From: Actinotalea sp. JY-7876
GTDB lineage: Bacteria > Actinomycetota > Actinomycetes > Actinomycetales > Cellulomonadaceae
Direction of reading: 5' to 3'
NCBI RefSeq assembly: GCF_014042015.1
Contig: NZ_CP059493.1
Span: 2,170,001 to 2,234,000, forward strand
DNA length: 64,000 bases
In this document: positions 24,491-28,618 of the stretch, one piece after another
Position numbering within the stretch: the stretch's first letter is position 1
Layout: every line of letters starts with the position of its first letter
Program-made: the position numbers and the translations under genes
The notes under the pieces: generated by a model
Seen by the model: the letters and a program-made list of their open reading frames with translations, nothing else
Told to the model about the DNA's origin: nothing
The model's database searches: none

Positions 24491-24751
24491 GTGGCGAACA
24501 TCAAGTCCCAGATCAAGCGCATCCGCACCAACGAGATCGCGCGCCTGCGCAACAAGGCTGTGAAGTCCGAGCTCAAGACGCACGTGCGTCGGGTGCGCGA
24601 GGCCGTCGCCGCAGGCGACAAGGAGGCAGCCGCCACGGCCCTCCAGGTCGCGACGACCAAGCTCGACAAGGCCGTGAGCAAGGGCGTCATCCACGCCAAC
24701 CAGGCCGCGAACCGCAAGTCGGCGCTGGCCAAGCAGGTCGCCTCCCTCTGA
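24491..24751 (+). CDS. rpsT: 30S ribosomal protein S20
   Basis: 86 residues beginning [34 protein letters not shown], the typical basic helical S20, which binds the 5' and 3' minor domains of 16S rRNA. GTG 24491 has only a weak upstream AAGAGAG. The 146-bp leader region before it (24345-24490) presumably holds its promoter, but no clear box is seen. A strong terminator follows. Confidence 0.97.
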
Positions 24752-24977: not shown

Positions 24978-26324
24978 TCAGTGCTCGGCGCCGCTGAACC
25001 CGGCCGCCGCCGACGACGGGACGACCACGGAGGGGACCGCCGTCGGGTAGATGCCGGCGTCGCGCAGCGCCGCGTCGAACGCCTGGGCCGCCCCTGCCGT
25101 GTCGCCGTGGCTCAGCAGCCGGTCCCCCAGCGCCCGCCAGATCGCGGCCGCGCTCCGGCCGGCGGCCATCATCGCGAGCCGGCCGCCCGCCCACTGGTAG
25201 GTCTCGCGCGCCTGCTCGACCTCGCCCCGCGCCGCGAAGACGTCGCCGAGCAGGATGTTCCCATTGCAGATGTCGAGGGCCGCCTGGTCCTCGAGCCGGC
25301 TCAGGCCGCCGCGCGCGAGCGACTCCGCCCGATCGGCGTCCCCGAGCATGAGCCACGCGCGCCCCTGCTCGAACTCGCACCGGGCGAGCTCGATCTCGGA
25401 GCCGACGACCGCGAGCCCCGCCGCCGCCTCGTCGAGCTGCGCCAGGGCGGCCTCGGGCTCCGCGGGCAGGCACCGCAGCAGGAGCCACCCGAAGTGCAGG
25501 CGCAGGCGCGGCACGTCCCGGCTCGCCGCACCTTCGCTCAGGTACGCGAGGGCGCGCTCGGTGAGCCGGCGGGCCTCGGCGAGGTCACCGCGCCCCTCGG
25601 CGACGAGCGACGCGTTCCAGTAGATGCTCCCCCGCCCGCGCATGGTCCCCTTCGCCTCGGCGATGGCGATCAGCTCGGACGCGCGGTGGGTCGCGAACAG
25701 GAGGTCCCCGCGCTCGTAGTAGGACCAGAGCAGCGTCGCCCCCAGGCGCAGGTGCTCGTCGGTGCCCGCGATACCCGCGGCCTCCACGTCCTCGAGCAGG
25801 GCCTCACCGAGCGCGATGCTGTGCCCCAGGTCGCCGGCCTCGTGGTAGGCCGCGACGAGGTCGCAGCCCATGACGGCCGCGTCCAGCCACCGGTGGTCGG
25901 CGCGCGCGTCGGCGAGCAGCGGCTCGAGCACCGCCACGCACTCGTCGAGGTCGCCGAGCGCCTCGTGGGCGCGGGCCAGCGTGTGCAAGGCCTCGACGTG
26001 ATGCCTGGGCGCGATCGAGCCCAGGTCGAGCGCCAGGAGGCGGTCCCTCGCCTCCTGCGCCTCCCCGTTCACGAGCGCGAGCTGCGCGAAGCCGATCTCC
26101 AGGCGCGCGCGCTCCTCGCTCGGAGCCCGGTCGCCGAAGCGCAGGTACTCCGCGGTGGTGCCGAGGCGGCGCGCGAGGACGCCCAGTGCCGCGTCGGTGG
26201 GCACGCGTCGACCGGCCTCGATGAGCGAGATGTAGCTCGGCGAGAAGTCGTCCCCGGCGAGCGCCGTCTGGGAGAGGCCGGCACGGGTCCGCTCGGCGCG
26301 GAGGCGATCGGAGAGTTCTGTCAC
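24978..26324 (-). CDS. XRE-family regulator with TPR domain (RRNPP-like architecture)
   Basis: 448 residues. Residues 5-58 are a Cro/CI-type helix-turn-helix (LRAERTRAGLSQTALAG...SPSYISLIEAGRRVPTD). The rest is all-helical with tetratricopeptide-like repeats (for example ALHTLARAHEALGDLDECVAV; RLTERALAYLSEG; AGDADRAESLARGGLSRLEDQ-type units). HTH plus TPR is the plan of the Firmicutes RRNPP receptors (Rap, NprR, PlcR, PrgX) that bind exported, reimported peptides; similarity is architectural only. GTG 26324 is 8 nt after a TAGGGT -10 (26338-26333), so it is probably leaderless. An inverted repeat over the start suggests autoregulation. A 42-codon exported-peptide gene lies directly upstream on the same strand. 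Confidence 0.85.
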   Translation of the reverse strand: MTELSDRLRAERTRAGLSQTALAGDDFSPSYISLIEAGRRVPTDAALGVLARRLGTTAEYLRFGDRAPSEERARLEIGFAQLALVNGEAQEARDRLLALDLGSIAPRHHVEALHTLARAHEALGDLDECVAVLEPLLADARADHRWLDAAVMGCDLVAAYHEAGDLGHSIALGEALLEDVEAAGIAGTDEHLRLGATLLWSYYERGDLLFATHRASELIAIAEAKGTMRGRGSIYWNASLVAEGRGDLAEARRLTERALAYLSEGAASRDVPRLRLHFGWLLLRCLPAEPEAALAQLDEAAAGLAVVGSEIELARCEFEQGRAWLMLGDADRAESLARGGLSRLEDQAALDICNGNILLGDVFAARGEVEQARETYQWAGGRLAMMAAGRSAAAIWRALGDRLLSHGDTAGAAQAFDAALRDAGIYPTAVPSVVVPSSAAAGFSGAEH

Positions 26325-26348
26325 AGTTGGTCACCCTATCCGTGACAG
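26318..26348. promoter_or_regulatory. Candidate operator at the TPR-regulator promoter
   Basis: CTGTCAC (26318-26324) and GTGACAG (26342-26348) form a perfect 7-bp inverted repeat with a 17-bp spacer containing the TAGGGT -10 box (26338-26333) and another GGTCACC. One arm covers the GTG start codon. Related TGTCA/TGACA repeats occur at 26572-26590 and 26738-26754. Confidence 0.55.
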
Positions 26349-26372
26349 TGCGCGCCGGGCAGGGCCCGAAAG

Positions 26373-26409
26373 GATGAAAATCCGACGCCGGCCTCGCGGC
26401 CGGCGTCGG
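26373..26409 (-). terminator. Intrinsic terminator after the small peptide gene
   Basis: On the minus strand CCGACGCCGGCC and GGCCGGCGTCGG (plus 26382-26393 and 26398-26409) pair perfectly over 12 bp with a 4-nt loop, followed by ATTTTCATC (26381-26373). The stop of the 42-codon ORF is 6 nt before the stem, so this ORF is a separate short transcript, not the start of the regulator mRNA. Confidence 0.85.
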
Positions 26410-26414
26410 CTCCG

Positions 26415-26543
26415 TCACATCTTGCAGCAGCCCGTGCTGCCGACACCCAGCGTGCTCACGCCGCCCGAGCCGAGGGGCAGGCCGACGACGGTGAGGCCGA
26501 GCGTGACGACGACGGCGGCGAGGGTCTTGGCGATGCGGTTCAT
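26415..26543 (-). CDS. 42-residue exported-type peptide next to the TPR regulator
   Basis: ATG 26543 has AGGAG 5 nt upstream and the ORF stops at 26415. The N-terminus MNRIAKTLAAVVVTLGLTVV is a classic short signal sequence: positively charged n-region then a 17-residue hydrophobic core, ending around PLGSGG. The remaining tail of about 13 residues is STLGVGSTGCCKM, small residues with a Cys-Cys pair near the end. Own ribosome site, own terminator, and a TGTCA inverted repeat at the probable promoter all support a real gene. It could be a signalling pro-peptide for the adjacent TPR regulator, a small membrane peptide, or a modified peptide; no maturation enzyme is nearby. Confidence 0.65.
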   Translation of the reverse strand: MNRIAKTLAAVVVTLGLTVVGLPLGSGGVSTLGVGSTGCCKM

Positions 26544-26571
26544 GGGAGCTCCTGGGCGGTCGGGCGACGTG

Positions 26572-26590
26572 TGTCACGAGGACTATGACA
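26572..26590. promoter_or_regulatory. Candidate operator at the small-peptide promoter
   Basis: TGTCA (26572-26576) and TGACA (26586-26590) are an inverted repeat with a 9-nt spacer, 29-47 bp upstream of the peptide ATG. On the minus strand CATAGT, a possible -10, lies inside it. The half-sites match those over the regulator promoter. Confidence 0.5.
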
Positions 26591-26737: not shown

Positions 26738-26754
26738 GTCACCCCGCCCGTGAC
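26738..26754. promoter_or_regulatory. Third TGTCAC-like inverted repeat
   Basis: GTCAC (26738-26742) and GTGAC (26750-26754) with a 7-nt spacer lie in the 259-bp gap between the peptide gene and holA. The rest of this gap (26591-26737) is noticeably richer in A/T than its surroundings and holds no ORF. Could be an upstream operator or chance. Confidence 0.35.
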
Positions 26755-26802: not shown

Positions 26803-27807
26803 TCAGCCTCGGGCGTCGGCGACGCGCAGCACGGCGCGCTCGATCGCGAAGGCGGCGTCCCGGCCGCCGCCCTTGACCTCGGCGTCCGCCTGCGCGACGG
26901 CGGTGACCGCCGCGGCGAGCGCCTCGGGGGTCCAGCCGGCGAGCTCACGCCGTGCCCGGTCGACCTGCCACGGCGCGAGGCCGAGGTCGCGAACCGGGTC
27001 CAGGCCGCGGCCGCGGGCGGCGCCCACCTTGGCGAGCGTGCGCAGCTTCGACGCCAGCGCCGCGACGAGCGGGACCGGGTCCGTTCCCGTCGACATGGCG
27101 TGCCGCAGCAGGGCGACGGCCTCCCCCGCCCGGCCCTCGACGGCGGCGTCGGCGACGCGGAAGCCCGTGGCCTCCACCCGCCCGCCGTAGTACCGCGTCA
27201 CCAGGTCGTGGGTCACGAGGCCTGTGGAGTCGGCCGCGAGCTGAGCGCACGCGGCGGCGAGCTCCCTGAGGTCGGCGCCGCACGCCTCCAGGAGCGCTCG
27301 CACGGCGGCGGGCTCGGCCTTGCGGCGGGCGCGGCGCAGCTCCCCCATGACGAAGGCATGCTTGTCCGCGTCCCGCTTGATGGGGTCGCACGCGACGACG
27401 GTCGCGCCGGAGGCCCGGATGGCCTCCAGCGCCTTCTTGCCCCGCACGCCACTACCGTGCTGGAGCACCAGCCACACGTCGGGAGCGGGTTCCGCGAGGT
27501 AGGCGACGACGTCGGCCAGGGCCTCGTCGGTCCCCTGGTGCAGTCCCGAGAGGACGACCAGACGCGGCTCGTCGAAGAGCGACGGGCTGGCGGCGACGCT
27601 GAGCCGGCCCGGCTCGTAGGCGGCGGCGTCGAGCCGGACGACCTCGACGGCGGGCTCCCGCTCGCGCGCCTGCGCGACGAGGCGCTCGACCGTGCGCTCG
27701 GCGAGCAGCGCCTCGGAGCCCGCGAGGAGCACGACGGGCGCCAGCTCCGCCTGGTCCCAGGCGATGCCGCCGGTCGGGGCGGTGCTGCGGCGGGCGGCAG
27801 GGGGCAT
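26803..27807 (-). CDS. holA: DNA polymerase III subunit delta
   Basis: Clamp-loader subunit that opens the beta clamp. 334 residues: ELAPVVLLAGSEALLAERTVERL at the N-terminus, LVVLSGLHQGTDEALADVVAYL, the LLEACGADLRELAAACAQLAADSTG block, and a C-terminal helical region (ALASKLRTLAKVGAARG, APWQVDRARRELAGW). This is the usual actinobacterial holA between comEC and rpsT. The start ATG 27807 lies in the palindrome GGGGCATGCCCC; upstream frames are open through repeats and are not credible. Confidence 0.93.
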   Translation of the reverse strand: MPPAARRSTAPTGGIAWDQAELAPVVLLAGSEALLAERTVERLVAQAREREPAVEVVRLDAAAYEPGRLSVAASPSLFDEPRLVVLSGLHQGTDEALADVVAYLAEPAPDVWLVLQHGSGVRGKKALEAIRASGATVVACDPIKRDADKHAFVMGELRRARRKAEPAAVRALLEACGADLRELAAACAQLAADSTGLVTHDLVTRYYGGRVEATGFRVADAAVEGRAGEAVALLRHAMSTGTDPVPLVAALASKLRTLAKVGAARGRGLDPVRDLGLAPWQVDRARRELAGWTPEALAAAVTAVAQADAEVKGGGRDAAFAIERAVLRVADARG

Positions 27808-27874: not shown

Positions 27875-28082
27875 CCGCCGCCCCACCCCGCCAGTCCCTG
27901 CCGCCCCGCACCGCCAATGCCTGCCGCCCCGCCATCTCCCCCGCACCGCCAGTGCCTGCCGCCCCGCCATCTCCCCCGCCCCGCCAATGCTTGCCGCCCC
28001 GCCATCTCCCCCGCACCGCCAGTGCCTGCCGCCCCGCCATCTCCCCCGCACCGCCAGTGCCTGCCGCCCCGCCATCTCCCCC
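27875..28082. repeat. 35-bp tandem repeats upstream of holA
   Basis: Unit starting CCGCCCCGCCATCTCCCCCG (35 bp in all) occurs at 27924, 27959, 27994 and 28029, with shorter partial copies at 27875-27923 and 28064-28082. Three full copies are identical; the second differs at a few bases. The block begins about 70 bp upstream of the holA start and is strongly strand-asymmetric (C-rich on plus). No protein-coding periodicity is maintained because 35 is not a multiple of 3. The promoter of holA must lie in or before it. Confidence 0.9.
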
Positions 28083-28126
28083 GCCACACGCCGCCCACCG
28101 CCGCCGCACCAGCCGCGGCCGCGACC

Positions 28127-28333
28127 AACACGTCCGTTCCCCGCGAGAACGTCCGCTGCACAGGACGTACTCGGCCGGAACGGACGTGGTCGGCCCACGT
28201 CCGTCCTCCGACTGCGGCGTGGGCCTGCGTCGGCGCGCGCCGGTGGGCGGGATCGCCACGTGGTCAGCACGTCCGTTTCCCGTGAGGACGTCCCCTGCAC
28301 AGGACGTGCTCACCCGGAACGGACGTGCTCGGC
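28127..28333. repeat. Two diverged 65-bp direct repeats containing ACGTCC-N8-GGACGT
   Basis: A segment beginning CACGTCCGTT at 28129 recurs at 28268 beginning CACGTCCGTTT, with most bases shared for about 65 bp (both contain CTGCACAGGACGT and CGGAACGGACGTG). In each the core is an inverted repeat ACGTCC - 8 nt - GGACGT. The second copy runs directly into the 20-bp array at 28322. No ORF is credible here. Confidence 0.8.
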
Positions 28334-28559
28334 GGGGATGGACGTGGTCGGCGGGGGGCGGACGTGCTCGGCGGGGGGCGGACGTGCTCGGCGGGGGGCG
28401 GACGTGCTCGGCGGGGGGCGGACGTGCTCGGCGGGGGGCGGACGTGCTCGGCGGGGGGCGGACGTGCTCGGCGGGGGGCGGACGTGCTCGGCGGGGGGCG
28501 GACGTGCTCGGCGGGGGGCGGACGTGCTCGGCGGGGATGGACGTGCTCGGCGGGGGGCG
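28322..28559. repeat. 12-unit array of a 20-bp repeat (GGACGT boxes)
   Basis: Eight identical head-to-tail copies of GACGTGCTCGGCGGGGGGCG occupy 28361-28520. They are flanked on each side by near copies: 28322-28360 (one 19-bp unit with GGGGATG, one with GTGGTC) and 28521-28559 (a 19-bp GGGGATG unit, then one perfect unit). Spacing of one site per 20 bp is near two helical turns. Runs of six G recur every 20 nt, so G-quadruplex structure is possible. There are no spacers, so it is not CRISPR. Together with 27875-28333 this fills the 811-bp gap between holA and the MFS gene; no gene is seen in it. Confidence 0.95.
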
Positions 28560-28618
28560 GACGTGGGCGGCTCGCGGACGGTGCCGGTGGGGAGGCCGGC
28601 GGGGCGGGGGTGTGGCGG

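Follow-up and report, generated by a model that had tools for sequence, protein, structure and literature searches.

Can an actinobacterium read a peptide of its own with a cytosolic receptor, in the manner of the RRNPP systems? The question is raised by two neighbouring genes, one for a helix-turn-helix (HTH) protein with TPR repeats and the other for a very short exported peptide. They lie in the window analysed here, a stretch of 64,000 nucleotides of Actinotalea sp. JY-7876 (NZ_CP059493.1, 2,170,001 to 2,234,000), and all positions below are in the numbering of that window. A first, sequence-only reading had taken the two genes, together with inverted repeats at their promoters, for the pattern of a peptide-sensing circuit.

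The regulator and its neighbouring peptide gene

Both genes are on the minus strand and sit between holA, their upstream neighbour (DNA polymerase III delta subunit; 26803-27747, minus strand, with 27747 the end of the part used as query), and rpsT, the downstream neighbour (ribosomal protein S20; 24491-24751, plus strand). The gene holA is conserved across all 25 sampled genera, and holA-rpsT synteny defines the site. Two tandem repeats are found near the holA 5′ end, one with a 35-bp unit repeated 5.2 times (27904-28084, 95% match) and the other with the 20-bp unit CGGACGTGCTCGGCGGGGGG repeated 12.4 times (28320-28565, 94% match).

The regulator gene (24978-26324, minus strand) starts with GTG and encodes 448 residues. 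It is single-copy in the 3.55-Mb chromosome, and the closest named kin of its product are in Actinotalea and Cellulomonas. The open reading frame, the Pfam matches (HTH_31, 2.5e-10; HTH_3, 5e-7; TPR_2, 2.5e-8) and an AlphaFold2 model agree on an HTH and TPR protein. The model, built with 38 sequences and having a mean pLDDT of 90.6, consists of the HTH followed by a TPR superhelix of about nine helix pairs. This is the layout of RRNPP receptors, an N-terminal HTH (except in Rap) and C-terminal TPR repeats, as the sequence-only reading had it. The resemblance extends to PlcR, which is the best natural PDB protein matching the regulator over both domains by sequence profile (E 2.1e-9, residues 3-183); further profile matches are RapJ (7.5e-5) and the HTH of ComR (1.4e-6), both the HTH and the TPR being widespread. 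Among the fold matches, which are peptide-binding TPR domains, the PlcR-PapR7-DNA structure appears with an E of 8.6e-6 at rank 33, and eukaryotic adaptors (LGN) stand at the top. TPR superhelices bind many partners, and this counts against reading the regulator as a peptide receptor. The protein would work like the receptor of an RRNPP system; as to membership of that family, the receptor homology is compatible with it and not decisive.

Upstream of the regulator and on the same strand lies the peptide gene (26415-26543, minus strand), present where it had been proposed. Its product, MNRIAKTLAAVVVTLGLTVVGLPLGSGGVSTLGVGSTGCCKM, has 42 residues and ends in the tail GSTGCCKM. The gene is preceded by a Shine-Dalgarno sequence, AGGAG, at about 26549-26553 (minus strand), with similar ones in the orthologues, and is followed by its own intrinsic terminator (26382-26409, minus strand) with a 12-bp stem, a 4-nt loop and an ATTTT tail. 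The terminator is the sole terminator-like match within 600 bp and has a folding z of -3.3. The N-terminus of the peptide is export-signal-like and this architecture is conserved; the Actinotalea-type peptides have no clean AxA at the signal-peptidase site.

The relatives make clear that the two genes belong together. In a same-family sample of 30 loci, a small ORF stands beside nearly all orthologous regulators, and in the 70 Cellulomonadaceae-type loci drawn from 79 named loci of a genome collection, a small Cys-Cys (CC) ORF is beside the regulator in every one. Conversely, the holA-rpsT sites of 19 relatives that lack the regulator, several of them empty and others holding unrelated DNA, contain the peptide in no case. 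When small exported ORFs preceded by a ribosome site were sought, with no demand for cysteine, the 600 bp 5′ of each of the 79 regulators gave 75 in all, and CC stands near the C-terminus in 73 of these; applied to the flanks, the same screen gave six such ORFs in 664 kb, and the only one with CC adjoins a second regulator. With both flanks covered and no cysteine required, the filter also recovers peptides encoded 3′ of the regulator or within longer ORFs. All 71 peptides have the Cys-Cys, and the consensus is G-[AS]-[TS]-G-C-C-[RK]-x(1-5). The tail is the most conserved part of the peptide, and what lies between it and the hydrophobic core is variable. In most close pairs, dN/dS of the peptide gene is about 0.08-0.4, which indicates purifying selection. 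Thus the expectations that the small ORF would accompany the regulator, keep its tail and be under coding constraint have all held.

Candidate operators on both promoters

Three palindromes of the form GTCAY-N7-GTGAC lie within 425 bp, which is far above chance; the whole 3.55-Mb genome has about 33 matches to the pattern, most of them in coding sequence by codon statistics. Candidate operator 1, GTCACGGATAGGGTGAC (26330-26346), covers the -10 box of the regulator, TAGGGT (26333-26338), assigned from the sequence. Candidate operator 2, GTCATAGTCCTCGTGAC (26573-26589), covers the probable -10 of the peptide gene, the -10-like CATAGT at 26582-26587, which was likewise assigned from the sequence and lies about 40 bp 5′ of the peptide start. 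A distal candidate, operator 3 (GTCACGGGCGGGGTGAC, 26738-26754), was absent from the sequence-only reading. That reading had described the repeats as perfect or near-perfect TGTCAC/GTGACA pairs: the palindromes on both promoters stand, while the literal form TGTCAC-N0-10-GTGACA matches nowhere, the outer bases being imperfect. An extra half-site, TGTGAC (26320-26325, minus strand), is located over the regulator start codon and makes up part of a composite operator pattern. The regulator mRNA is probably leaderless or nearly so.

As proof that these are operators, conservation across the 70 loci is, at the level of sequence, stronger than local clustering. The equivalent of operator 1 is found at about -22 from the regulator start codon in nearly all of the 70 loci, and in most of the 70 a counterpart of operator 2 precedes the peptide start by about 50 bp. 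With at most one mismatch, a site is present in the 50-bp regulator promoter of 52 of the 70 loci (0.04 in shuffled sequence) and in the 55-bp peptide promoter of 32 of the 70 (0.10 in shuffled sequence), so that the predicted conservation of the repeats is borne out on both sides. The distal third site has a counterpart in 10 of the 70 loci, where shuffled sequence would give 0.33. In the family that we call f38, the divergent promoters (intergenic regions of L157-L179) have conserved half-sites GTGACT and TGTCATGACA, and TGTCATGACA overlaps the regulator start codon, like TGTGAC in the window. Since the operators sit on the -10 boxes, we infer that binding represses.

What else might be under this control? 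Of 19 same-genus genomes, 17 contain the composite of regulator operator and half-site a single time each, with every match at the regulator, and the peptide operator is nearly unique per genome, 17-18 of the 19 genomes holding sites essentially only at the locus. Pattern searches in the same-genus genomes found no conserved operator outside the locus, and therefore no wider regulon is visible. Non-coding candidate sites are present 5′ of a bldC-like gene, an EAL gene and a gene for a secreted tripeptidyl-aminopeptidase-like lipoprotein; those 5′ of the BldC-like and EAL-domain genes are perfect GTCAC-N7-GTGAC sites (L139, G000:C1:362453, and L140, G000:C1:372798). The secreted peptidase was set aside as a regulon member because its site is not conserved in the genus, and the bldC-like gene because a site with the same spacing is not conserved there. 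To judge from the sequences, the circuit would control itself and its peptide, and a wider regulon, if any, would be reached via weaker sites or via the peptide.

The pairing in other actinobacteria

The sequence-only reading considered one locus of a type hardly described in actinobacteria. The pair is real, and its breadth had been underestimated: it occurs in many actinobacterial families, and its hallmark is the C-terminal Cys-Cys. The pairing of regulator and CC peptide is found in at least ten further actinobacterial families. The two genes are divergent in f15, f18, f27, f32, f35, f38, f39 and f46; the peptide gene is co-directional and upstream in f1, f16 and one f32 locus, and convergent and downstream in f32 and f45. 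Since gene order varies while the partner stays constant, a functional link between the two can be argued. In many of the peptides from other families, a clear AxA cleavage site is present and CC forms the very C-terminus, MARLRRVLAVTLAALTLTAAAATVAAPASADTIEPNWPTMCC being an example.

The pair is present in Streptomyces glaucescens (L132) and Actinoplanes sp. KI2 (L134). The tail reads ...MTGDAGCC in Nonomuraea gerenzanensis (L282), ...GDLPLCC on a plasmid of Streptomyces sp. NBC_01707 (L283) and ...HTKDIPLCC on a plasmid of Streptomyces sp. ADI95-16 (L279), the last amid biosynthetic-looking genes by a BTAD/SARP regulator and a P450. On this linear plasmid (NZ_CP033582.1, 376997-394133), CC peptide and regulator are followed by an exported 70-residue ORF without CC, which adjoins the genes for the SARP/BTAD regulator, the cytochrome P450 and an ABC transporter.

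Variation within the class is informative about the peptide. In two loci (L052 and L053; G102:C1 and G115:C1), four tandem peptide genes come after a paralogous regulator; their middles are variable and their tails near-identical (...SPCCKQAIR and ...SPCCKSAIR). Because in these four-gene arrays the tail is conserved and the middle is variable, the tail is suggested to be the part that is read. Elsewhere, four regulator homologues stand in a row on one contig (L044, L051, L055 and L056; G223:C158), which suggests tandem expansion or recent duplication. The loci in which no CC peptide was found include L045, L186, L187, L189, L191, L196, L199, L201-L203, L281 and L284, and at two others, L156 and L164, the contig breaks off within the locus.

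On the receptor side, a YWN motif in the TPR helix at residues 228-244 (N237 in the window regulator) is near-invariant among the homologues; RRNPP receptors, for comparison, have a conserved TPR asparagine through which the backbone of the peptide is held. Its Asn is replaced by Glu or Gly at five loci, four of which are without a CC peptide. One with YWG (L199; G608:C2) adjoins an exported small ORF, ending in ...FGWNHPG, that lacks Cys-Cys. The association between Asn and CC peptide gave a Fisher p of about 0.007 with L133 and L135 counted as without CC peptide and with kinship ignored; CC ORFs were found downstream at these two loci, so the true figure is lower than that p implies, and the association is weak, relying on few, partly related loci.

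The phages and viral contigs searched gave no real homologue of the pair: two weak HTH-only matches came from viral contigs and one partial match, without a CC peptide, from phage records. A phage arbitrium system of the AimR-AimP kind was rejected, the pair being chromosomal, between holA and rpsT, and not phage-borne.

How the circuit may work

A conserved pair, an export-like N-terminus, an invariant CC tail, operators on both promoters and an HTH-TPR fold can all be read from the sequences, and peptide sensing is well supported by them, much as first suggested. We think it rather probable that the pair is an RRNPP-like peptide-receptor circuit, in which an autorepressing receptor senses its own exported, C-terminally CC-tagged peptide. 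The N-terminal signal would direct export of the pro-peptide, and maturation would leave a short C-terminal peptide with Cys-Cys, here around GSTGCCK. In the cytosol, the HTH-TPR protein would bind the GTCAY-N7-GTGAC operators, occlude the -10 boxes of both promoters and thereby repress its own gene and that of the peptide. The peptide, re-imported or not yet exported, would then bind the TPR superhelix and alter DNA binding, most likely lifting repression and thus giving positive feedback on the peptide, with whatever downstream output the circuit may have. No dedicated importer, modification or immunity genes lie beside the pair at holA-rpsT; two SBP_bac_5 (peptide-binding, Opp-type) proteins are encoded in the genome, and they could serve peptide import, the task of an oligopeptide permease in RRNPP systems.

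The chief rival, to which we give perhaps a one-in-five standing and hence call unlikely, makes the peptide a product: the exported CC peptide would be, for instance, an effector acting outside the cell, an antimicrobial or a binder of metals or thiols, and the HTH-TPR repressor would sense some other cytosolic cue and control only the peptide and itself. The lack of outside targets keeps this explanation alive, conserved operators being essentially confined to the locus with no conserved external target. However, TPR regulators of such architecture classically bind peptides, and the absence of modification and immunity genes at holA-rpsT does not favour an antimicrobial or other effector. Moreover, it is the tail and not the whole mature region that is conserved, and the four-copy arrays keep the tail and vary the rest.

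Alternatively, the regulator may be a sensor of secretion or envelope stress that recognises the precursor still inside the cell once Sec export or the thiol-disulphide balance is upset, so that it reports export status and not cell density. The CC could well report redox state, the sole visible targets are the regulator itself and the peptide, and the missing importer gene would be no difficulty here. Yet it is the tail that is conserved rather than the signal sequence, and recognition of a tail only is more natural for a matured peptide; we regard this alternative as improbable.

Cysteine-codon leader ORFs are known in actinobacteria, and they share with the peptide gene the short ORF and the adjacent Cys codons near a terminator. 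The small ORF might then be a cysteine-responsive attenuation leader, stalling at the two Cys codons setting terminator read-through into the regulator, and the position of these codons just 5′ of a strong terminator upstream of the regulator is what one would expect. Such leaders, however, are not exported and need an upstream co-directional position, which fails in most families here: a peptide gene that is divergent or convergent cannot be the regulator's leader. In addition, a conserved promoter and operator that belong to the regulator lie past the terminator, a leader would need a conserved terminator or antiterminator whereas long hairpins 3′ of the peptide ORF occur in only about 11 of the 70 loci and are not general among relatives, and purifying selection acts on the protein together with a conserved export signal. 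The attenuation leader was accordingly rejected as very improbable. That the ORF is a chance or annotation artefact without function, for which its small size alone would speak, is negligible as a possibility given the 70/70 co-occurrence, the purifying selection, the screen against flanks and the joint absence at 19 sites.

The RRNPP-like reading can be placed beside the known systems. PlcR-PapR of the Bacillus cereus group likewise has a cytosolic HTH and TPR receptor, an adjacent small exported pro-peptide and operators near the peptide gene. It belongs to another phylum; the regulator here has 448 residues versus 293 in the PlcR PDB chain, the tail has an invariant Cys-Cys whereas the PapR heptapeptide, ADLPFEF, is cysteine-free (PMC6568020), and no wider regulon was detected. 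ComR-ComS and Rgg-SHP of streptococci share an HTH repeat-domain receptor, a neighbouring short signal gene and autoregulation, along with the sequence match to the ComR HTH; they differ in that the peptides are unlike, the export routes differ, theirs being PptAB (PMC12700828), and they are confined to Firmicutes. The systems collected with RRNPP_detector have the same pairing of a receptor with an adjacent pro-peptide gene, and the search logic is as used here (PMC10075063). They have been described for Firmicutes and their mobile elements, and actinobacterial signals are typically small molecules (PMC10075063). Two other RRNPPA surveys leave actinobacteria unmentioned, and we found no prior report of an actinobacterial RRNPP system in the open-access literature.

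We would put at about even chances the broader proposal that there is a large undescribed actinobacterial class, from Actinotalea and Cellulomonas to Streptomyces, Actinoplanes and Nonomuraea relatives, of C-terminal vicinal di-cysteine signals read by an HTH-TPR receptor. Reading may be redox-dependent, with an oxidised ring outside the cell and a reduced form inside, and some members would lie in Streptomyces biosynthetic clusters next to a SARP activator. As signal chemistry, such an invariant C-terminal Cys-Cys is unusual. Peptide quorum sensing via cytosolic TPR receptors is regarded as a speciality of Firmicutes, and for actinobacteria it is mainly small-molecule signals that are known; peptide sensing by this pair, if true, would add a class of signalling new to the phylum. 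So simple and recurrent a pair would then offer a handle on cell-cell communication across the phylum, and, with one pair in a Streptomyces cluster by a SARP gene, a synthetic peptide could switch on silent antibiotic clusters.
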